Assembly (NCBI RefSeq): GCF_029948125.1
Contig: NZ_JASAMB010000011.1
Span: 1-64,000, forward strand
Length of the DNA stretch: 64,000 nucleotides
Direction: 5' to 3'
Source: Catellatospora sp. KI3
Lineage (GTDB): Bacteria; Actinomycetota; Actinomycetes; Mycobacteriales; Micromonosporaceae
Shown here: positions 54,962-64,000 of the stretch, one piece after another
How the letters are laid out: the number at the start of each line of letters is the position of its first letter
Position numbering within the stretch: the stretch's first letter is position 1
The notes under the pieces: model-generated
What the model was told of the DNA's origin: nothing
The model's database searches: none
Seen by the model: the letters and a program-made list of their open reading frames with translations, nothing else
Made by a program: the position numbers and the translations under genes

Positions 54962-56050
54962 CTACCGCATGGCGACCACGTGCCCGGTCCGGGCGGGAGC
55001 GCGGCCGCCCAGCACGTCCAGCCACGCCGCCCGCAGCGCGTCCGGGCCGGTGCCCACGGTCACGTCCACCCAGTCGCGGGCGGCGACACTGAACCGGCGC
55101 CACGCGTCGGCGAACCGCGCGTCCAGCCCGTCGCGGCCCCAGTCCTGGGTCCGCTTGCGCATCTGGACCGGGGCGAAGAACACCGCCGACGCACTCTGCG
55201 CGTTGGGCGTCTGCGAGGTCAGCCCGACGGCGAGGTCGTGCACCAGGCGCGGGCCGAGGCGGGCGCGCACCGCCTCCCGCACCTCGGGACGGCCGGACAG
55301 GTCGAGGTAGACCGTCGGCCGGTCCGGGTCTAGGTCGTGCACCCGGTCGTAGGTGAGCACCTCGTCGTAGCAGCCCAGGTCCGCGGTGAACGCGACGTTG
55401 CCGGGCGAGGTGAGCCCGACCAGTCGCGGCCCCTTGCCGTGCAGTTCGAACGCCGCCGCGTAGGCCGTCTTGCTCGACGCCGAGGAGACGACCAGCGCCT
55501 CGGCGCCGTGGTAGCCGCTGTCCTCGAGCTGGTCGGCGAGCATGAACGAGGTGAAGAACAGCGGCCGGAACAGGATCAGCAGATCCTCCTGCGCGGCGTC
55601 GTACGCCTGGTCGCCGGTGGTCAGCCGGTAGGCGTTGTACGGCGACGGCAGCTCGGCGCGGTGCGCGGACGCGTCGCGGAAGCCCTGCGCGTCCACCCGG
55701 TCGGGCCGTACGACCAGGTGCGAGGCTGGCGGCAGGTAGCCGTAGAGCCGCCGGCCGGGCGTCACCCCGGGCACGGTCGAGGCCTGCACCTCGGCGAAGC
55801 CCCACACCGGCGGCAGCCCCCAGGCGGCGTCCAGCCCGCGCGGCTGCGGCGGGAAGAACTCCCAGTAGCGGAACGACTCGCCCAGCACCGCATAGGTGAT
55901 GTTGTTGGCGGTCACGCCGACCCGGTCCACCCGCAGCAGCACCTCGCCGTCGACCAGGTCGGGCAGCGGATGCGCCGCCACGGTCACGCGCGACAGGTCG
56001 GCGCGGTCCACGGCCAGCGTCCAGGCGGTCGGGGCGGGGGTCTGGGTCAT
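54962..56050 (-). CDS. DUF2855-family protein
   Basis: A 362-residue cytoplasmic protein of the DUF2855 family, recognisable from VTANNITYAVLGESFRYWEFF near residue 50 (part quoted) and the central SSASSKTAYAAAFEL segment that resembles a degenerate MDR-type nucleotide-binding fold. A zinc-independent reductase role has been suggested for such proteins, but no activity is established to my knowledge. The ATG at 56050 is preceded by GGAGCC. Confidence 0.85.
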   Translation of the reverse strand: MTQTPAPTAWTLAVDRADLSRVTVAAHPLPDLVDGEVLLRVDRVGVTANNITYAVLGESFRYWEFFPPQPRGLDAAWGLPPVWGFAEVQASTVPGVTPGRRLYGYLPPASHLVVRPDRVDAQGFRDASAHRAELPSPYNAYRLTTGDQAYDAAQEDLLILFRPLFFTSFMLADQLEDSGYHGAEALVVSSASSKTAYAAAFELHGKGPRLVGLTSPGNVAFTADLGCYDEVLTYDRVHDLDPDRPTVYLDLSGRPEVREAVRARLGPRLVHDLAVGLTSQTPNAQSASAVFFAPVQMRKRTQDWGRDGLDARFADAWRRFSVAARDWVDVTVGTGPDALRAAWLDVLGGRAPARTGHVVAMR

Positions 56051-56093
56051 CGAGGCTCCGTTCGAGAGGTGGCGTTCGCAGGGGACAGCCGGC

Positions 56094-56128
56094 GGCGCTC
56101 CCCGCGCCGGTGCCACGCGGGGAGCGCC
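56094..56128 (-). terminator. Hairpin terminator after the lipase gene
   Basis: GGCGCTCCCCGCG (56094-56106) pairs with CGCGGGGAGCGCC (56116-56128), a perfect 13-bp stem with a 9-nt loop, just past the lipase stop codon. Confidence 0.88.
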
Positions 56129-56139
56129 AGGGTCGCGGG

Positions 56140-56814
56140 TCAGGCCGCGATGAAGGAGCGGATCTGCGTCAGCACGCTGGTGTTCGTGAGGAACCCGATG
56201 TGGGTCTCGCAGGCCACGTTGTTGTTGCTGGCCCCGGACAGCGGCGTGCTGGTGTACGGGATGATGATGCCGTCGCAGGCGGAGTACCAGGTGCCGTACT
56301 TCGCGGTGCCGGGCGTCTCGTCGCCGTCGGCGAGGTCGAGGATGAACAGCGAGCCCGGGTACATCTCGATGCAGGAGACGTTGATCAGGCAGGCGCCCGC
56401 GTAGGTGGTGCCGTGGTTGGCCCCGGCGATCGAGGCGACGTGGCTGACGTACGCCGAGCCGCCCAGCTCCTCCAGGTACCAGCGGGTGACCAGGCCGCCC
56501 ATCGAGTGGTTGACGATCGCGACCTTCGACGCGCCGGTCGAGGCGCGCACCGAGTTGACGTAGTCGCGCAGCCCGGCCGCGCTGACCTTGTTCGACCCGG
56601 CCCAGTTGTAGTTGTACGTGTAGAGCTTGCTGAACCCGCCCGCGCGGAACACCGAGAGCGCGGTGGTCCAGTTGGAGCCGCTGCCGGTGTAGCCGTGCAC
56701 GAAGATCACGGGGGTGCTGGTCGCGGCGTTTGCCGCGGTCGCCGGCGCCAGGAACGTGGCGGTGGCGGCGACCAGGGTTGCGGCGAGTGCGGCGAGACGG
56801 TGACGCATACGCAT
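56140..56814 (-). CDS. Secreted triacylglycerol lipase (lipase class 2)
   Basis: Exported lipase of 224 residues. The signal peptide ends near ATAANAATS. The oxyanion strand is VIFVHGYTGSGSNW, the nucleophile elbow VNHSMGG with S104, and the catalytic His is in CETHIGFLTN; AGANHGT is also typical of the LipA/EstA group. Two Cys pairs are probable disulfides. The ATG at 56814 follows GGAGGGG. Confidence 0.93.
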   Translation of the reverse strand: MRMRHRLAALAATLVAATATFLAPATAANAATSTPVIFVHGYTGSGSNWTTALSVFRAGGFSKLYTYNYNWAGSNKVSAAGLRDYVNSVRASTGASKVAIVNHSMGGLVTRWYLEELGGSAYVSHVASIAGANHGTTYAGACLINVSCIEMYPGSLFILDLADGDETPGTAKYGTWYSACDGIIIPYTSTPLSGASNNNVACETHIGFLTNTSVLTQIRSFIAA

Positions 56815-57055
56815 GTGACCCCTCCGGGGACTGTCGGGTTGGGACGTGCTGGAAGCCTCGCAACCGGACGGATGCCCATGCATCGGTAGGATCGCCGGTC
56901 GCTTGCCAGCGCGCGGGACGTCAGAGATCGGCGACGGTGACGGCGATGCGGTCGATGCCTGACGTGGTGAACCCTGGGTCCCGCCGCCCGCCCGGGACCG
57001 GACCGCGAGCGTGATCGAGCCGGCGGCGTCGGCGCCCGGCTGGGCCGCGATGGTT

Positions 57056-57109
57056 CGAGATCTTGTGCACTTCGCGTCGCTCCGGCGACGGAAGGTGCAC
57101 AAGATCTCG
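57056..57109. repeat. 54-bp palindrome of a second type
   Basis: Arms 57056-57080 and 57085-57109 are near-perfect complements beginning CGAGATCTTGTGCAC, with a 4-nt loop. It shares no sequence with the 62-bp family. It sits in the 316-bp gap 56815-57130, beyond the end of the membrane-protein gene; the rest of the gap shows no gene and includes the lipase promoter. Confidence 0.88.
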
Positions 57110-57130: not shown

Positions 57131-57787
57131 CTACGGCCGGGCCGGACCGGGTCGCGCCGCCGCGACCAGGGTCGCCACGATCGTGGCCTGGAGCGCCAGC
57201 TCGCCGAGGTTGCCGAGCCAGAAGTGGCGGAACCCGGCCCCGGCCGCGACGAACATGGCCACCGCGCCGAGCAGCAGCCATACCGTCCGGGCCTGGCGCC
57301 ACAGCAGCGCTCCGATCACGATCAACGCCAGCATCGTGACGATCGCGGGCACCGGCGGTCCGGCCGCGGCGGTGTTGGTGTAGCGCAGCGTGTCGGCGTA
57401 CGCGGCCGGTTCGAGGTCCAGCCGCACGATGTCGGTGGCGGCGCCCAGGGCGATCAGCACCAGCGCGAGGACCCCGGCGGCGGTGATCACGCCCCGCCGG
57501 GCGAGGACGGCCACCCCGAGCCGTGCCCCGATCAGCACCGCCCCGACGAGCAGTAGCGGGGTGAGCAGGGCGTGGACCCAGTAGCGTCCCGCATTCACGG
57601 CTTCCAGCGTCGGGCCGTAGCCGAGTGAGGAGCCGACGGCGACCGCGGTGTTGTCATAGGCCAGGCCGGTGCAGAGGACCGCGACGAGGACGGCCGCCGA
57701 ACCTGTGGTGGCGCGCAACCGCAGCGCGTACACCCCCAGCCCCAGCATGCAGATCGCGACAGCACCCAGCAGAGCAGAAATCATCAT
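57131..57787 (-). CDS. Integral membrane protein, unknown family
   Basis: A 218-residue protein with about seven hydrophobic segments. Polar positions cluster in GLAYDNTAVAVGSSLGYG and GRYWVHALLTPLLL, and in GAGFRHFWLGN. The conserved-looking His and Tyr inside membrane segments suggest a ligand- or cofactor-binding membrane protein. I do not recognise the family. The ATG at 57787 (or 57784) lies 38 bp downstream of palindromic element E. It follows the tetrapyrrole-type operon in the same direction and might be co-transcribed. Confidence 0.7.
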   Translation of the reverse strand: MMISALLGAVAICMLGLGVYALRLRATTGSAAVLVAVLCTGLAYDNTAVAVGSSLGYGPTLEAVNAGRYWVHALLTPLLLVGAVLIGARLGVAVLARRGVITAAGVLALVLIALGAATDIVRLDLEPAAYADTLRYTNTAAAGPPVPAIVTMLALIVIGALLWRQARTVWLLLGAVAMFVAAGAGFRHFWLGNLGELALQATIVATLVAAARPGPARP

Positions 57788-57825
57788 GCCACCTATCGGG
57801 GAGGGTGGCCGCGCCGTGCCCAGGG

Positions 57826-57887
57826 TGCAGTTTCGGGGAAAGTGCCGGAATCTTGGCGCTGATTCGTGCACTTTCCCCGAAACTGCT
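57826..57887. repeat. 62-bp palindromic element, copy E
   Basis: Nearly identical to copy A in arms and in the inner stem (GGAATCTTGGC...GATTC); the last base differs (TGCT). It lies between the maleate-isomerase-like gene and the membrane-protein gene, so it is inside the possible transcript. Confidence 0.93.
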
Positions 57888-57932: not shown

Positions 57933-58676
57933 TCAGTGGTCGCGGAGCAGGGAGCCCGCGCCGTACACCTTGTCGTTGATGCCGTTGTCGCGCAGCGCCA
58001 TCCACCAGGTGGCGGCGTTGATGGCGATGACCGGCTTGCCCAGCCACCGCTCGGCCTCGTCGGCCAGCCGCACCATCGACAGGTTGGTGCCGCACTGGAC
58101 GATCGCGTCCACCTCGGGCCCGTCCACGGCGAGGATCGCCTCGCGCAGCCGCTCCTCGCTGACGTGGGCGATGGACACCGCGGTCGGGCACTTGAGCCCT
58201 TCGATCGCGGTGACCTCGAAGCCGATCTCGGAGAAGAACTTCACCACGTTCTCGTCGCCCACCGGCTGGTACGGCGTGACCACGCCGATGCGGCGCGCCC
58301 CGTACAGCTTCAGCGCGCGCTCGCACGCCTCGGCGCCGGTGGCCACCTCCAGTCCGGTGATCGACTTGATCTGCCGGACGAACTCCCGGTTGCCCTCGAC
58401 CCCGCCCCAGAACGTCTCCGCCGACATGCCCATGACCATGTAGTCCGGTTCGCAGGTCAGCACCCGCTCGCAGGCGGCGCCGATCTCGTCGCGGATCTGG
58501 ACCAGCAGGTTCTCGAACTGCGAGTCGTCGGAGAGGTCCTGGTTGCGGATGTGGATGCGGGAGAAGTGCGCGGTCACGCCGGGCACCGTCATCGAATAGA
58601 AGTCGGGCTCGACGATGGTGTTGGTCGACGGGGCGATGACGCCGAACTTGCGGCGCCAGCCCAGCGCGTCGGTCAT
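57933..58676 (-). CDS. Maleate cis-trans isomerase / Asp-Glu racemase family enzyme
   Basis: A 247-residue enzyme of the maleate isomerase/arylmalonate decarboxylase group. The typical opening FGVIAPSTNTIVEPDFY and the C-terminal IVQCGTNLSM with C195 are present. The N-terminal catalytic Cys of true maleate isomerases appears to be replaced (S85 in MGMSAET), so it may be a one-cysteine decarboxylase-like or isomerase variant. It is the last coupled gene of the operon (4-bp overlap). Oxidative cleavage of tetrapyrroles gives maleimide-type products, so processing of such products is conceivable; this is inference. Confidence 0.85.
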   Translation of the reverse strand: MTDALGWRRKFGVIAPSTNTIVEPDFYSMTVPGVTAHFSRIHIRNQDLSDDSQFENLLVQIRDEIGAACERVLTCEPDYMVMGMSAETFWGGVEGNREFVRQIKSITGLEVATGAEACERALKLYGARRIGVVTPYQPVGDENVVKFFSEIGFEVTAIEGLKCPTAVSIAHVSEERLREAILAVDGPEVDAIVQCGTNLSMVRLADEAERWLGKPVIAINAATWWMALRDNGINDKVYGAGSLLRDH

Positions 58677-59332
58677 GCGGGCACCTCCGCCAGGGTCGCG
58701 GTGCGCGCGGCGGCCCGCACCGTCAGCCAGGCGGCGATCAGGAACAGCGCCTGCGAGGCGGTGTTGATGCCCTGCTCCAGCCACTGGAACGTCAGCGTGT
58801 GGTGCTCCGGGTGCGAGCGCAGCGGCACCATCGCGGTGACGCCGACCAGCCCGATCACGAACAGCGCGACCGCGCCGAAGACCCGGCGCCGCCAGGCCAG
58901 TACCGCGCCGAGGATGCTGATCGTGGTGACGCCGACGGTGGCGGCGATGAAGGGCGGCTGAAGGCTGGCGGTGCCGACCGCGGCGCCCGCGACGGCGGCC
59001 GCGATCAGCGCGTACGGCCACCACGGCGCGGTCCGGCCGCGCAGGCTGGTGTGCAGCGACCACAGCACCAGCAGCGCCCCGGTCGCCATCAGCGGGAACA
59101 GCGACTGCTGCAGCCAGGGGTGGTCCTGGTCGGCGGTGGACAGGATCAGCTTCCAGGTCGACTTGGCGACCCCGCCCAGTCCGATCAGGACGGCGCCGAT
59201 CCGCCCGGCCGTGGCCACGCGGCGGTCGATGTCGCGGGCCGCCCCGCCGAGCAGCCAGAACCCGAACATGGCGAGCAGCGTGGGGACGTAGTCCTCCAGC
59301 GCCATGACCACCGGGTAACCGTGTTCGTTCAT
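58673..59332 (-). CDS. Integral membrane protein of the tetrapyrrole-type operon
   Basis: A 219-residue protein with six or seven membrane helices, starting after a short polar N-terminus (MNEHGYPVVMALEDYVPTL). Histidines in QDHPWLQQSLFP and in HPEHHTLTFQWLEQG may line a membrane site. No family recognised. It overlaps the reductase gene upstream and the isomerase-like gene downstream by 4 bp each, so it belongs functionally to the operon; transport or membrane anchoring are possible roles. Confidence 0.8.
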   Translation of the reverse strand: MNEHGYPVVMALEDYVPTLLAMFGFWLLGGAARDIDRRVATAGRIGAVLIGLGGVAKSTWKLILSTADQDHPWLQQSLFPLMATGALLVLWSLHTSLRGRTAPWWPYALIAAAVAGAAVGTASLQPPFIAATVGVTTISILGAVLAWRRRVFGAVALFVIGLVGVTAMVPLRSHPEHHTLTFQWLEQGINTASQALFLIAAWLTVRAAARTATLAEVPA

Positions 59333-60102
59333 GCTTCTTCTCCGAAGACGTCGCGCTTGCGGAACGCGGTCAGGAACCTGAAGAACGCCTTGCGCTGGGT
59401 CAGCCACGCGACCCGCGCGCCGTTGGGTGCGCCGGCCAGCACCTTCTCGGCCAACCACGGCGTGACCGTCTCTACCCGGTCGGCCAGGATGTTGAAGATC
59501 TTCTTTGCCTGGGCCAGTTCCTCGGGGGTGTAATCGTGGGTGAGCAGGTCGGTGACGACCATGCCCGGCGACAGGTGGTGCACGGTCACCCCGGTGCCCT
59601 CGACCTCTTTGGCGAGGCTGTCGGTGGTGTACGTGACCGCCCGCTTGGTCGCGCCGTACACGGTGAGGCCCGGTCGGCGCATGCCGTTGGAGCCGAACCC
59701 CTCCATGTTCCACACCGCTCCCGCACCCTGGGCGGCCATGGCGCCGAGCACGACGGCGTTGGCGTGCAGCAGGCCGCGCAGGTTGAGGTCCACGGTGGCG
59801 TCCAGCTCGGCCGCGGGCAGTTCCCAAAGCCGCTTGCGGGCCGGGGACATGCCCGCGTTGTTGATCCAGATGTCGACCCGGCCGTGCCGCTCGGCGGCCG
59901 CGTCCCACAGCCGCTGGACCGCCGCGCGGTCGGTGACGTCGGCGACCACTCCGTACGCCTGCGGCACCTGCTCCTGGGCCCGTCTGACCGAGTCGACCGA
60001 GCGGCCGCAGAAGACCACCTGGGCGCCCCGCGCCGACAGCTCGCGGACCAGGCCGAGGCCGATGCCCCGGGTGCCGCCCGTGACGACGACGACCTTGCTC
60101 AC
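59329..60102 (-). CDS. NYC1/NOL-like short-chain dehydrogenase
   Basis: SDR of 257 residues. The cofactor motif is TGGTRGIG (8-15), with INNAG at 80-84 and the catalytic YGATK (Y149, K153). Stretches WNMEGFGSNG, HHLSPGMVVTDLL and KKIFNILADRVE follow the pattern of plant chlorophyll b reductases NYC1/NOL (NMDGAGSGG, SPGMVLTELL, MFNI). Those enzymes reduce the 7-formyl group of chlorophyll b. The order of motifs and the operon context support this relationship; the true substrate is unknown. The GTG at 60102 follows GGGAGG. Confidence 0.82.
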   Translation of the reverse strand: MSKVVVVTGGTRGIGLGLVRELSARGAQVVFCGRSVDSVRRAQEQVPQAYGVVADVTDRAAVQRLWDAAAERHGRVDIWINNAGMSPARKRLWELPAAELDATVDLNLRGLLHANAVVLGAMAAQGAGAVWNMEGFGSNGMRRPGLTVYGATKRAVTYTTDSLAKEVEGTGVTVHHLSPGMVVTDLLTHDYTPEELAQAKKIFNILADRVETVTPWLAEKVLAGAPNGARVAWLTQRKAFFRFLTAFRKRDVFGEEA

Positions 60103-61043
60103 GAGGCCTCCCAGTGCAGCACCCCGTGCAGGACCGCGTCCAGGACGTTGCCCTGGAACACCTCGTACACGACGGCCAGGCGCCCGTCGGCGGACATGCC
60201 CGGCTCGGCGTCGATGGCGAACTCGCGGAACTTCAGCTTGGTCACGTCGGTGAAGTGCAGCGAGCCGAACAGCGCCCGGCCGAAGCCGATGGCGTTGCCC
60301 CAGGCCTGCGGGCCCTCGTAGAAGTGGCGGTTGCCGTCGCGGCGGGCGCTGAAGGCCGCGGTCCGGGACAGGGCCCCGGACCAGGTGACGGTGCGGGTGG
60401 TGTGCAGCAGGTCGACGGGGTCGAGCGCGATGCGCACGTCCACGGTGCCGCGCGGCTTCTGGTCGGCGCCGAACAGCTCGCAGCTGCCCACGTACGCCCC
60501 GGCCTGCTTGGTCGGGGTGATGTACGGGACGGCACCGCGCCGGCTCTCCCCGGCCAGGAAATCCTCGACCCGCTGCGTTGACTCGGGCGAGTCGTCCAGG
60601 GTGCGGGTGTAGACGCCGTTGAAGCAGCCCACCACCGACCAGCCCTGGTACAGCACCGACGAGTAGACCTGCGTCTCGCCGTCGGGCAGCACCTGGTTCC
60701 AGGTGTTCAGGTCGACCTGCCAGCCGGGGCCGTAGTAGTGCGAGTCCACGAACCCGCCGTAGGGCTGGCCGGTGCCGTAGAAGTCCGGCCCGGTGTAGAC
60801 CCGGTTGTCGTCGGCGTCGACCACCCCGAACGCGAACGGCGCCCCCAGCCGGAACTGCCCGGCCAGGGGTCCGCCGCCGATCAGGCCGCCGTTCATGTAG
60901 TACGTGGTGACGCCGTTCTCGAACACCGACGACCGGTGGATCTCCTCGAACCCGCACCAGGTCCCGGTGGCGTCGAACAGCGACGGCCGCCCGTGCCACT
61001 GCCCGGCGATGCGCTGCTGCCAGACGCTGGGCTGCTCAGCCAT
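60099..61043 (-). CDS. Hypothetical protein, possibly two lipocalin-like domains
   Basis: A 314-residue soluble protein with no signal peptide. It appears to contain two related beta-rich halves: the first starts GQWHGRPSLFDATGTW, the second near residue 186 at GAYVGSCELFGADQKPRG. A GxW motif near the start and alternating strands suggest a lipocalin/calycin fold such as bilin-binding or lyase proteins use. This fold assignment is tentative. Overlaps with both neighbouring genes (8 and 4 bp) mean it is made together with the bilin-reductase-like and NYC1-like proteins; a pigment carrier is a reasonable guess. Confidence 0.7.
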   Translation of the reverse strand: MAEQPSVWQQRIAGQWHGRPSLFDATGTWCGFEEIHRSSVFENGVTTYYMNGGLIGGGPLAGQFRLGAPFAFGVVDADDNRVYTGPDFYGTGQPYGGFVDSHYYGPGWQVDLNTWNQVLPDGETQVYSSVLYQGWSVVGCFNGVYTRTLDDSPESTQRVEDFLAGESRRGAVPYITPTKQAGAYVGSCELFGADQKPRGTVDVRIALDPVDLLHTTRTVTWSGALSRTAAFSARRDGNRHFYEGPQAWGNAIGFGRALFGSLHFTDVTKLKFREFAIDAEPGMSADGRLAVVYEVFQGNVLDAVLHGVLHWEAS

Positions 61044-61758
61044 TGGCCACCAGCTCGGCCCGGATCGCGTCGGTGGTCTCGTCGCCGAGCAGTCGCGACA
61101 CCTGCGCCCAGACCGGGTCGACGTCGCGGCTGAAGATGTTGCCGCGCACCGCCGCGTCCCGGGCCGCCAGGTCCACTCCGGCCACGCTCGCGGCCGCCTC
61201 GGCGGGCAGGCCGGTCTCGACCAGCCCCGACCAGTGGTCGGCGTAGGCGTCGACGTACCCGTTGATGCTGGCGAAGGCGTCCTCGGTGGCCCGGTTGACC
61301 AGCATCCACGGCGACATGATGGCCCGCTGGCGCGGCCCGATCGCGGCCGGGGACAGGCCCTCGGTCGCCGAGGCGGCGTCGAAGGTCTCGGTCAGCGGGC
61401 GGAAGGCCGCGTCCAGGTAGGGCAGGTGCGCGGCGAGGTCGGCGCGCGGGATCAGGTCGAGGTGGAAGGCGTGGTACGAGCCGCCGTACACCGAGTCGAG
61501 GGTGAAGTGCGGGACGGCCGAGTCCTCCGGTGTGAACGCGAAGATCATGTGGCTGTCCAGGTGGATCATCGGCACGACCAGGCCGACGTAGACCAGCTTG
61601 GCGACCGACGTACCCCGGAAGATCCGCACGCTGCCCACCGGCGCGGGCGACATCGGGCTGCGCAGCTCGGCCAGCGGCGTCTCGACCGGCTTGAGGTCGG
61701 GGTGGCGGGCCAGGATGCGCTGCAGGGTGGCCTCGCACAGGTCGGCGGGCAGGCTCAC
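61036..61758 (-). CDS. RCCR/ferredoxin-dependent bilin reductase-like protein
   Basis: A 240-residue protein whose core follows the ferredoxin-dependent bilin reductase pattern. HMIFAFTPEDSAVPHFTLD places H70 and D88 like the catalytic His88 and Asp105 of PcyA (HCVMF...PMFGCD). YHAFHLDLIPRADLAAHLPYLD resembles the red chlorophyll catabolite reductase segment ILDLPPRKDLVLYPDYL. The C-terminus fits the helical end of the family. Such enzymes reduce linear tetrapyrroles with ferredoxin electrons. The GTG start overlaps the Rieske gene stop by 4 bp (GTGA), placing it directly after the ring-opening type oxygenase. Confidence 0.68.
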   Translation of the reverse strand: MSLPADLCEATLQRILARHPDLKPVETPLAELRSPMSPAPVGSVRIFRGTSVAKLVYVGLVVPMIHLDSHMIFAFTPEDSAVPHFTLDSVYGGSYHAFHLDLIPRADLAAHLPYLDAAFRPLTETFDAASATEGLSPAAIGPRQRAIMSPWMLVNRATEDAFASINGYVDAYADHWSGLVETGLPAEAAASVAGVDLAARDAAVRGNIFSRDVDPVWAQVSRLLGDETTDAIRAELVANG

Positions 61759-62957
61759 GACGGCTCCTCGGGGGTTCGGGCGTCCGCCTCGGCGGCGTCC
61801 CAGGCGGCCTGGACGGTGGGGTGCTCGCCGCGCGCCTTGTGCACCCAGGCACGGGCCAGTTCGGGGTTCTCGCGGCGGGCGGGGGAGGCGATGACGGTCG
61901 CGGTACGCCGGGGCACGTCACCGGTGATGGTGTCCTCGTCGGACAGCAGCCAGCCCTTCTCGGCCAGCTCCTGGCGGCGGCGCCGGTAGTGCACCGCGAT
62001 CAGGTCGCTCTTGATGTGCAGCTCCGCGCCCAGGTCGAAGGGCAGCAGCTCGGGCCGCACCTTGTTCACGACCTCGGCGTCCTCGTAGAAGATCTTCAAG
62101 GTGCGCTGCACGGCGTTCTTGTCGGCCCACTTGCCGGTGAAGAAGGTGCGCAGCGCCACCCACTTGACCAGGGTGGTCGTCTCGTCGATCGGGATGTTCG
62201 TGTCGTAGATGATCAGCTCGCCGATCGGCAGCCGCACGTGCAGCTTGATCATGTTCGGCAGCATCCAGCCCGCCGAGGTGCGCACCGGCGGCCGGTTGTT
62301 CAGGTCGCCCTTGTTCCGGTTGAGCATCGACCAGATGCCCTTGGGGCGCGGCGGGAACAGGTCGACGGTGGCGAACGCCGACCACTCGTCCGGCACCTCC
62401 AGCTCGTACTCCTGCACCTCCGGGCGCTCCGGGTTGCCGAACGCGCCCGCGTGCACGAACGGGGCGTGCGCGATGTCGCAGCCGTTCTCCAGGATCCGCT
62501 CGTAGTTGGAGTGCCACAGGAACTCGCCGGTCACCGCCCGGAAGCGGCCGCCGTTCTCCTTGAGGTCGTCGAACTCCGGCCACACCGGCAGCGGCGGGCG
62601 CTCGGCCTCGGGCAGGTCGCCGAGGAACACCCACACGAAGCCGTACTTCTCCTGCACCGGGTACGAGTCGACGCGCGCCTTCTTCGGGATGGCGCGCCCC
62701 GGCAGGTTCGCCGGGATCTTGGTGCACTGCCCGTCCGCGTCGTACTCCCAGCCGTGGTACGGGCAGACGATGCAGCCGTCCTTGGTCCAGCCGCCCGACA
62801 GCGCCGCACCCCGGTGCACGCACAGGTCCGACAGCGCCACCGGGCGGCCCTTCGGGGTGCGGTACAGCGCCAGGTGCTGGCCCAGCACGGTCACCCGCAT
62901 CGGCTTGGTGGTGACCCGGTCGGCGAACTCGACCGCGTACCAGAAGTTCTTCAGCAT
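61755..62957 (-). CDS. Pheophorbide a oxygenase-like Rieske oxygenase
   Basis: Rieske non-haem iron oxygenase of 400 residues. The [2Fe-2S] ligands are C46-H48 (CVHRG) and C65-H68 (CPYHGW). The mononuclear iron site is in NGCDIAHAPFVH (D161, H164, H169). The C-terminal region fits the pheophorbide a oxygenase group (PaO/TIC55/CAO relatives). Unlike the plant proteins it lacks the C-terminal membrane helices and their CxxC motif, so it should be soluble. PaO opens the chlorin ring; here the substrate is inferred from the adjacent bilin-reductase-like gene. GGAGG precedes the ATG at 62957. Confidence 0.82.
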   Translation of the reverse strand: MLKNFWYAVEFADRVTTKPMRVTVLGQHLALYRTPKGRPVALSDLCVHRGAALSGGWTKDGCIVCPYHGWEYDADGQCTKIPANLPGRAIPKKARVDSYPVQEKYGFVWVFLGDLPEAERPPLPVWPEFDDLKENGGRFRAVTGEFLWHSNYERILENGCDIAHAPFVHAGAFGNPERPEVQEYELEVPDEWSAFATVDLFPPRPKGIWSMLNRNKGDLNNRPPVRTSAGWMLPNMIKLHVRLPIGELIIYDTNIPIDETTTLVKWVALRTFFTGKWADKNAVQRTLKIFYEDAEVVNKVRPELLPFDLGAELHIKSDLIAVHYRRRRQELAEKGWLLSDEDTITGDVPRRTATVIASPARRENPELARAWVHKARGEHPTVQAAWDAAEADARTPEEPS

Positions 62958-62959
62958 CT

Positions 62960-63922
62960 CTACCTCCGCTGGATCGATGCGACGCCGTGGTGGGCGGTGA
63001 GCTTGTCCCACTCGGTGAACGACGCCGGGTCACCGCTCAGGTGCATCCGGCAGAAGACGGCCAGCAGGTCGGCGAGCAGCGCCCGGTGCGCGGCCGGGTC
63101 GCCGTCGGGGGCCTGGTCCAGGAACGCCCGCGCGGCGGTGTGGTCGACCGGGTCCACGATCGCGAAGTGGTTGGCCCCGGCCAGGCGGATCAGCGCGTTG
63201 GCGCCGTCGCGGTCGGGCAGCGCCTCGTCGAACGTGCGCGTGATCGGGTCGCGCCGGGCGGCCGCGTCCTCGCCGTACCGGTCGGCGGAGCCGTTGATGA
63301 CCCCGTCGTTGGTGCCGCCGACCAGCAGCACCGGGCAGTCCGCCTGCGCGGGCAGCACCGTACCGGCCGGCCAGCCGAGCATCGTGGCGACCATGTTGTG
63401 CGCACCGTACGTCGCGACCGCCTTGACCTCCGGCACGAAGCTCGCCGACTGCAGCGCGACCGTGCCGCCCGCCGAGTGGCCGATCAGGGCCACCCGGTCC
63501 AGGTCCAGCAGCCCGGCCACCGGGCCGGTCATCGACGCCAGCGCGTCGAGCACCGGCCGCAGCGACGGGCAGGTCGGCCGCTTGCCGTAGCCGTCGGGCC
63601 GGGCCGCGTCCAGGTCCACGCCCGGTGTGATGCCGTGCAGGCCCCCGAACAGGGTGCCGACCCAGTCGTAGGTGACCGCGACGATGCCGCGCTCGGCCAG
63701 CCGGGTGGCCAGCCAGCGGTACGCCTCCTGCCCGACGTTCACGCCGGACACGATCACCGCCACCGGGAACGGCGCCCCGGCCGGGTCGGCGGCCATCACG
63801 CCCGACAGCCGCTCCCGGTCGCTGCCGTCCGGCGCGGCCGGGTAGTAGACGCGCAGGTGGGCCGTGTCGAACGGGGCCTCGTGGCCGGGGATCGTCGCGG
63901 CCCACCACACCGAGCGGATCAT
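62960..63922 (-). CDS. Chlorophyllase-like alpha/beta hydrolase
   Basis: A 320-residue cytoplasmic alpha/beta hydrolase of the chlorophyllase/dienelactone hydrolase type. PFPVAVIVSGVNVGQEAYRWLATRLAERGI starts the fold at about residue 55 (part quoted). The nucleophile elbow is LIGHSAGG, compared with GHSRGG in plant chlorophyllase. The acid is in LLVGGTNDGV and the histidine in GANHFAIVDP. Chlorophyllase removes phytol from chlorophyll. It ends 2 bp before the Rieske gene start and its ATG overlaps the stop of an upstream gene by 4 bp. Confidence 0.75.
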   Translation of the reverse strand: MIRSVWWAATIPGHEAPFDTAHLRVYYPAAPDGSDRERLSGVMAADPAGAPFPVAVIVSGVNVGQEAYRWLATRLAERGIVAVTYDWVGTLFGGLHGITPGVDLDAARPDGYGKRPTCPSLRPVLDALASMTGPVAGLLDLDRVALIGHSAGGTVALQSASFVPEVKAVATYGAHNMVATMLGWPAGTVLPAQADCPVLLVGGTNDGVINGSADRYGEDAAARRDPITRTFDEALPDRDGANALIRLAGANHFAIVDPVDHTAARAFLDQAPDGDPAAHRALLADLLAVFCRMHLSGDPASFTEWDKLTAHHGVASIQRR

Positions 63923-64000
63923 CGCGGCCGCTCCAGTTCCCGGTCCCCGCCCCACAGGCCGCGCACCAGGCGGTCGGTGGTCTCCTGGCCGAAGAAGCGC
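63919..64000 (-). CDS. 3' end of a further operon gene (partial)
   Basis: The last 26 codons of a minus-strand gene that continues beyond the window. The C-terminal peptide ends GLWGGDRELERPR and the TGA overlaps the ATG of the chlorophyllase-like gene (ATGA). The family cannot be told from this fragment. It shows that the operon extends to the right. Confidence 0.65.
   Translation of the reverse strand, partial: RFFGQETTDRLVRGLWGGDRELERPR

Follow-up and report, generated by a model that had tools for sequence, protein, structure and literature searches.

The stretch of DNA analysed here (the window) comprises positions 1–64000 of contig NZ_JASAMB010000011.1 (C3) from the 8.2 Mb genome of Catellatospora sp. 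KI3. At its right end lies an operon of seven complete genes and an eighth at the window edge, all on the minus strand, which in transcript order we call H, A, B, C, D, E, F and G. A first-pass annotation of the window had seen seven genes and a partial one with couplings of 2–8 bp, and this layout is confirmed: adjacent genes overlap by 4 bp (H/A, B/C, D/E, E/F and F/G) or 8 bp (C/D), and a single gap of 2 bp separates A from B. The operon brings a Rieske non-haem iron oxygenase (B) together with two members (H and C) of the superfamily of red chlorophyll catabolite reductase (RCCR) and the ferredoxin-dependent bilin reductases (FDBR), and its carriers are an actinomycete and scattered unrelated bacteria.

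Gene H (63919–64722 in contig coordinates, with the final 82 bases, 63919–64000, inside the window and the remainder beyond the edge) is the partial gene that the first-pass annotation left without a function. It encodes the long form of the RCCR/FDBR-superfamily protein, with 267 residues. It passes the Pfam family RCC_reductase (PF06405; E = 2.1e-14, 53.8 bits, cut-off 24.9) and is the sole match to that family at E ≤ 0.01 in its own genome; its match to Fe_bilin_red (PF05996; E = 1e-3, 19.3 bits) is below the cut-off of 31. A profile built from 24 H homologues retrieved structures of Arabidopsis RCCR (AtRCCR) at E = 4e-18 (69 bits) and the bilin reductase GtPEBB at E = 2e-9 (41 bits), the RCCR match spanning almost the full length of H. 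On these scores the link to RCCR is solid, and H is judged the stronger RCCR relative of the two.

Gene C (61036–61758, GTG start) encodes a short and diverged form of 240 residues, whose only Pfam family at E ≤ 10 is RCC_reductase, with a score (14.0 bits, E = 0.028) below the cut-off; Fe_bilin_red is thus unmatched at E ≤ 10 by the C of the window. Among its homologues, RCC_reductase is matched at E ≤ 0.1 by 14 of 27 (best 2e-4) and PF05996 by 5 of 27 (best 5.5e-4). The top matches of the C profile in the PDB are to RCCR (E = 0.016), comparison of the C and H profiles gives 98.1% (E = 6.6e-14), and a search with the C profile picks up H in two other genomes (1e-13 and 2e-9). C was rejected as an RCCR proper since its Pfam score falls under the cut-off; given its likeness to H we name it a member of the superfamily only. 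The RCCR/bilin-reductase-like protein of the first-pass annotation is therefore borne out, and in two members.

The two proteins differ at catalytic positions. In GtPEBB, Asp-99 and Asp-219 are described as essential (PMC6755814); their numbers in the chain are 101 and 221, and the same shift by two residues puts Arg-215 on an arginine. Residues were counted in 45 C proteins and 39 H proteins (one of the 46 C genes was excluded by the score and unread-residue filter); the separate C and H alignments comprised 27 of the 46 C genes and 24 of the 39 H genes. In three alignment modes, the Asp-99 column holds Asp in C (D88, 45/45) and Ala in H (39/39), while the Asp-219 column holds Asp in both (D214 in C, 44/45 with one gap; 39/39 in H), so that the FDBR pair is complete in C and not in H. 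AtRCCR Glu154 and Asp291 are the residues that we take to be catalytic in RCCR. At the Glu154 position H again has Ala (39/39) and C has Asp (45/45), so neither keeps the RCCR glutamate. The Asp kept in both falls two residues past AtRCCR 291 in one alignment, where column 291 is mixed Asp/Glu; in other alignments AtRCCR itself has an Asp in the GtPEBB Asp-219 column, so this match is alignment-dependent. Because it keeps both FDBR aspartates, C looks like an active reductase of the bilin type; H, having lost one acid, may act differently from C or only bind a ligand.

Gene B (61755–62957) encodes 400 residues with Rieske and VanA_C domains, both of which are present in all 24 homologues aligned (22 of the 40 B genes and those of loci L052 and L053). 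Invariant in this alignment are C46/H48 and C65/H68 together with D161/H164/H169, which we take to be the ligands of the 2Fe-2S cluster and the mononuclear iron. The closest structures are SxtDIOX, SxtT and dicamba demethylase. The first-pass annotation was right to call B a Rieske oxygenase but wrong to liken it to the plant pheophorbide a oxygenase (PaO): the PaO domain (PF08417) is found in 0/24 homologues at E ≤ 0.1, and nowhere in the genome of the window, with the control positive in 2 of 14. We therefore reject B as a PaO and assign it, from its domains, to the VanA type. It shares both domains and the likely metal ligands with VanA-type monooxygenases such as dicamba O-demethylase and SxtT/SxtDIOX, but differs from them in forming a clade of its own that goes with RCCR genes.

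A C-based search of genome contigs yielded 45 loci, to which we added that of the window and L052 and L053, found via PF06405; C is present in 46 of these 48 loci by construction. Counts over the 48 are C 48, B 42, A 42, H 41, D 40, E 39, G 31 and F 24, and for the neighbouring genes I, K and L (see below) 41, 27 and 27. The C of the window is 81–95% identical to those of seven Catellatospora genomes. Throughout the actinomycete loci the order H-A-B-C-D-E-F-G recurs, usually with I ahead, and in other phyla B, C, D and H mostly remain in one cluster; this recurring order argues that the cluster is not due to chance. Missing genes often, not always, coincide with short contigs, and three of the seven loci without H are on contigs of less than 6 kb.

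Co-occurrence was also assessed in whole genomes. Among 396 actinobacterial genomes, PF06405 (H), the C profile and the B clade were found in the same three, the genome of the window included, and the B clade, scoring 592–690 bits against 231 for the next Rieske protein, occurs only with H and C. In the other two of these genomes, which PF06405 had brought up independently of B and C, the genes H, B, C and D adjoin one another. In 282 genomes of the phylum to which genome G014 belongs, PF06405 was found in three, of which two were already known (L024 and L044); the third, L059, carries in a single run I, G, C, N, W, M, L, U, H, A, B and D. A search for H in plasmids gave no match.

Of the remaining genes of the operon, A (62960–63922) encodes an alpha/beta hydrolase of 320 residues, PETase/chlorophyllase-like, with the motif GHSAGG. 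The first Pfam and NCBIfam scans had used A from 63919 (one codon inside the start) and G with three extra residues; A was rescanned, and G recompared by structure search, with the settled starts. The chlorophyllase likeness noted in the first pass is seen in the family more than in this member: the Chlorophyllase family (PF07224) is matched at E ≤ 0.1 by 11 of 19 aligned members (18 of the 42 A genes and that of L059; best 8e-8), the A of the window reaching only E = 0.1 (11.8 bits, cut-off 26). PETase is matched at the same threshold by 17 of the 19.

Gene D (60099–61043) encodes 314 residues of a family without assignment. The D of the window has no match in Pfam or NCBIfam, and nothing in the PDB falls below E = 0.5. 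Its halves align with each other (hhalign, 84%), so the protein is apparently internally duplicated. It is homologous to S, a protein of the cluster in other lineages (98.5%), and S is related to R (94%); of the other cluster proteins tried for kinship with D, V and W proved unrelated and R was linked to S only. The first-pass annotation had proposed a possible lipocalin for D; a barrel of that type is possible, but it finds no support apart from a trace of DUF3598_N, which we take to be lipocalin-like, in 2 of the 21 members aligned (from 38 D genes; the L045 member contains an unread stretch as X), with a best E of 0.019.

Gene E (59329–60102, GTG start) encodes 257 residues of what appears to be a generic short-chain dehydrogenase (SDR; adh_short, E = 5.5e-42), and matches 235 NCBIfam families at E ≤ 1, with no NYC1/NOL model among the 25 of these that were listed. 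Gene F (58673–59332) encodes a variable protein of 219 residues, a membrane protein as judged by eye, with no Pfam or NCBIfam family above cut-off. Gene G (57933–58676; 247 residues) belongs to the superfamily of maleate isomerase, arylmalonate decarboxylase and EutA: Amdase is matched at E = 3.5e-20, EutA at 3e-22 but below its cut-off, and the structure of a putative maleate isomerase at E = 3e-13. Maleate isomerase uses two catalytic cysteines. The column that we take, from the structure-search alignment, to be that of the first is not Cys in any of four aligned members, and the second is Cys in three of them. The maleate-isomerase-like enzyme of the first pass thus stands at superfamily level, but within these four members the cysteine pattern looks unlike that of maleate isomerase.

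The gene set proved larger than first noted and looks degradative. Upstream of the operon lies the nitrilase-family gene I (CN_hydrolase in Pfam), with 4 bp between its end and the start of H. Beyond I come a Dabb gene on the other strand and then by further minus-strand genes, perhaps a separate transcript: one for an ice-binding-like adhesive protein, aldehyde dehydrogenase (ALDH) K, the FAD_binding_3 protein L, the methylisocitrate-lyase-like Q (prpB-like, motif KRCGH), ALDH M, the acyl-CoA-dehydrogenase-like flavoprotein N, flavin reductase O and, on the other strand, IclR regulator P. Some of the genes outside the window were called by a simple codon-usage script; an earlier grouping of open reading frames (ORFs) had been confused by antisense ORFs. 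N, lying beside O, is presumably a monooxygenase. These ALDH, flavoprotein, nitrilase and lyase families suggest that the cluster is catabolic.

Other lineages add different families. In metagenome-assembled genomes (MAGs) of Acidimicrobiia, and in the similar Actinomycetota MAG locus L029, the cluster holds in varying part Cyclase (PF04199), MmgE/PrpD, CaiB CoA-transferase and a CitE/RipC-like lyase, together with proteins S, R, T (DUF3891) and V; family scans for Cyclase, CitE and CaiB were done on L029, whose CaiB is closest to succinate-glutarate and mesaconate transferases. In L034 and L053 the neighbours of G and L include isochorismatase and HMGL-like proteins, and L052 has hydantoinase/oxoprolinase A and B. 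A comparable set lies on the contig of the window itself, at about C3:91.7–101.5 kb: MmgE/PrpD, Cyclase, CaiB-like, amidohydrolase, HMGL-like, a second CaiB-like and isochorismatase genes (Cyclase, MmgE/PrpD, HMGL-like and isochorismatase by Pfam; CaiB-like by similarity), with a CitE-like gene, grouped by similarity, at about C3:80.7 kb. Differing as they do among lineages, these families could open imides, lactams and amides and cleave substituted diacids or their CoA esters. Lactams and substituted maleimides arise when tetrapyrroles are broken down by oxidation, and isomerases and methylisocitrate- or citramalyl-type lyases degrade substituted maleates, so the wider set would fit the degradation of tetrapyrrole fragments.

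We consider it probable that the operon forms the core of an aerobic regulon for tetrapyrrole catabolism, with a chlorophyll-derived compound as its most likely substrate; this judgement covers any tetrapyrrole, linear bilins included. The logic of a Rieske oxygenase followed by an RCCR-type reductase is plausible. A would remove an ester, B would oxidise and probably open the macrocycle, and C, with a ferredoxin, would reduce the linear product in the manner of a bilin reductase; H would act on, or hold, the same kind of ligand, and D and its relatives may bind pigment. Flavoproteins and ALDHs (L, N with O, K and M) could then cleave the chain to fragments of one or two rings, whose lactam or maleimide rings nitrilase/amidase I and the imide-, lactam- and amide-opening enzymes would convert to alkyl-substituted diacids. 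These diacids would enter central metabolism by way of G and the methylisocitrate-type lyase Q, or else of a CoA transferase and a citramalyl-type lyase. From sequence we infer the substrate, the order of steps, the ring opening by B and all enzyme activities.

As to the substrate, heme oxygenase (PF01126) was found in three of seven cluster genomes, including that of the window, but not in the other four, of which two are 96–97% complete and two of untold completeness. Biliverdin from this enzyme family would thus be no general condition, which favours an external substrate, and with it a B that opens a macrocycle or attacks an external bilin; the esterase-type hydrolase A favours chlorophyll derivatives. 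That the substrate is a chlorophyll-derived macrocycle we propose tentatively, as plausible but short of probable.

Several findings weigh against tetrapyrrole catabolism of this kind. B is not a PaO, and in H an Ala replaces the acid that is Glu154 in RCCR and Asp in the bilin reductases. Loci L041–L043 (9.6–14.4 kb) have C without B, H or D nearby, and L028 (13.1 kb) has C without H. The genome scans score few candidates per genome (seven for C, four for B), so the absences among the 396 genomes are not absolute. The genome of the window itself encodes a heme oxygenase, so heme could supply a bilin. The Mg-dechelatase Staygreen (SGR; PF12638) was found in 0/28 cluster genomes, but its control was silent, and no ferredoxin or Rieske-reductase gene was seen among the scanned or called genes, no search directed at these families having been made. 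Q, CitE and CaiB all score below curated equivalog cut-offs, and most of the downstream families are generic.

The leading alternative, a special case of tetrapyrrole catabolism and possible though doubtful, is that the substrate is already a linear bilin (biliverdin or bilirubin from heme, a phycobilin, or phyllobilins of plant litter), which B would hydroxylate or cleave without any opening of a macrocycle. It would account for the bilin-reductase aspartate pair of C in place of the RCCR glutamate, for the secondary likeness of H to Fe_bilin_red (below cut-off) and GtPEBB, and for the heme oxygenase in three of the seven genomes. However, that enzyme was not found in the other four, H is nearest to RCCR (69 versus 41 bits), and the hydrolase A is present in 42 of the 48 loci, with over half of its aligned members matching Chlorophyllase at E ≤ 0.1.

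We think it unlikely that the RCCR/FDBR fold has been recruited to some other N-heterocycle or polycycle in an ordinary aromatic catabolic operon. The VanA-type Rieske enzyme B, the flavoproteins and ALDHs, the nitrilase-family I and the IclR regulator P are all of kinds usual in such operons, and the loss of a catalytic acid in H would also suit one. The cluster for lumichrome offers a similar parts list for another heterocycle (PMC12746152). Against this, two members of the RCCR superfamily are kept together (H in 41 of the 48 loci with C), one with both aspartates, and the characterised relatives that the profiles match act on linear tetrapyrroles (PMC6755814, PMC8621299).

Biosynthesis and any other reading, taken together, are improbable. 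Biosynthesis of a phyllobilin-like natural product, by itself highly improbable, could draw on a Rieske oxygenase, reductases and tailoring-type enzymes, and actinomycetes are prolific makers of natural products. The set nevertheless includes a lyase, a CoA-transferase, two ALDH families and an IclR regulator and occurs in cultured actinomycetes as well as in MAGs from other phyla (one of them, by title, from the Red Sea), and no gene of polyketide synthase or nonribosomal peptide synthetase type was noticed among the called neighbours, though no search was aimed at these. That the operon unites orthologues of plant chlorophyllase, PaO, RCCR and NYC1/NOL is very improbable: H is related to RCCR, but PaO is refuted for B, with a positive control in the genome scan, and the SDR is generic, so the likely relatives of all four claimed in the first pass are not shown.

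Tetrapyrrole catabolism, then, invites comparison with known systems. The plant PaO/phyllobilin pathway likewise joins a Rieske oxygenase to RCCR-family reductases, here encoded side by side. The cluster oxygenase, however, belongs to another Rieske subfamily; there are two RCCR-type proteins, not one, with changed catalytic acids; and SGR was not detected, with the silent control noted above. Plants store phyllobilins, whereas the bacterial cluster includes breakdown-type enzymes. With the FDBRs the cluster shares the superfamily and, in C, the GtPEBB-essential aspartate pair. Pre-1 and pre-3 pre-PcyA clusters of non-photosynthetic bacteria are described as typically containing heme oxygenase, Fe-S, V4R and globin genes, none of which was seen among the cluster genes scanned here; the same study uses RCCRs as an outgroup and does not mention Rieske proteins in its main text (Rockwell et al. 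2023, PMC10151467). The matches of Q, CitE and CaiB recall the routes of methylisocitrate lyase, of the itaconate lyase RipC and of mesaconate CoA-transferase, but stay below equivalog cut-offs and here stand beside relatives of pigment reductases, on a presumed tetrapyrrole substrate. Another such end route is that of 2,3-dimethylmalate lyase in nicotinate breakdown.

Enormous quantities of chlorophyll are synthesised and broken down, yet we know of no bacterial genes for dismantling its macrocycle or the resulting pyrroles. Our literature search (no preprints and few subscription papers covered) found no Rieske–RCCR cluster and no bacterial chlorophyll catabolism, so as far as it reached the cluster, real and conserved, is undescribed. 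The fullest version of the proposal, which we regard as doubtful, is a complete bacterial pathway in several phyla in which a new kind of Rieske oxygenase opens the chlorophyll macrocycle, RCCR-type reduction follows and the pyrroles are mineralised via substituted maleimides and dialkyl-maleates, with a possible source of plant RCCR. If true, it would make the turnover of pigments in soil and sea accessible to genetics, supply enzymes for work on tetrapyrroles and point to bacteria as a candidate reservoir for plant RCCR. The last would agree with a bacterial origin of SGR by transfer, as reported by Obata et al. 2019 (cited in PMC8621299). RCCR-domain proteins are reported in Nostoc and Anabaena (PMC2716323). 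As several cluster-bearing species are, by strain title, cultured, the proposal is directly testable.

Some minor observations concern the surroundings of the cluster. Just downstream of G, window 57131–57871 holds a probable membrane protein gene, present in 4 of the 48 loci including that of the window, and 54962–57102 holds more minus-strand ORFs, one of them lipase-like by eye. A paralogue of F (49% identity) at L047:2472–3209 adjoins the IclR regulator, with an alpha/beta hydrolase weakly like A (28%) nearby. L041, titled Bifidobacterium breve, shares its cluster variant with the actinobacterial MAGs L042 and L043 and is probably mislabelled. The ice-binding-like gene (PF20597) between ALDH K and the Dabb gene (L001:9736–11049, contig 66736–68049) is also found in L002 and, grouped in these two loci, looks like a lineage-specific insert. 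The DUF3891 protein (PF13030, scanned in L024; L024:6017–6829, L033:11276–12094) occurs in 10 of the 48 loci with V and S, and this recurrence is a possible clue to its function.

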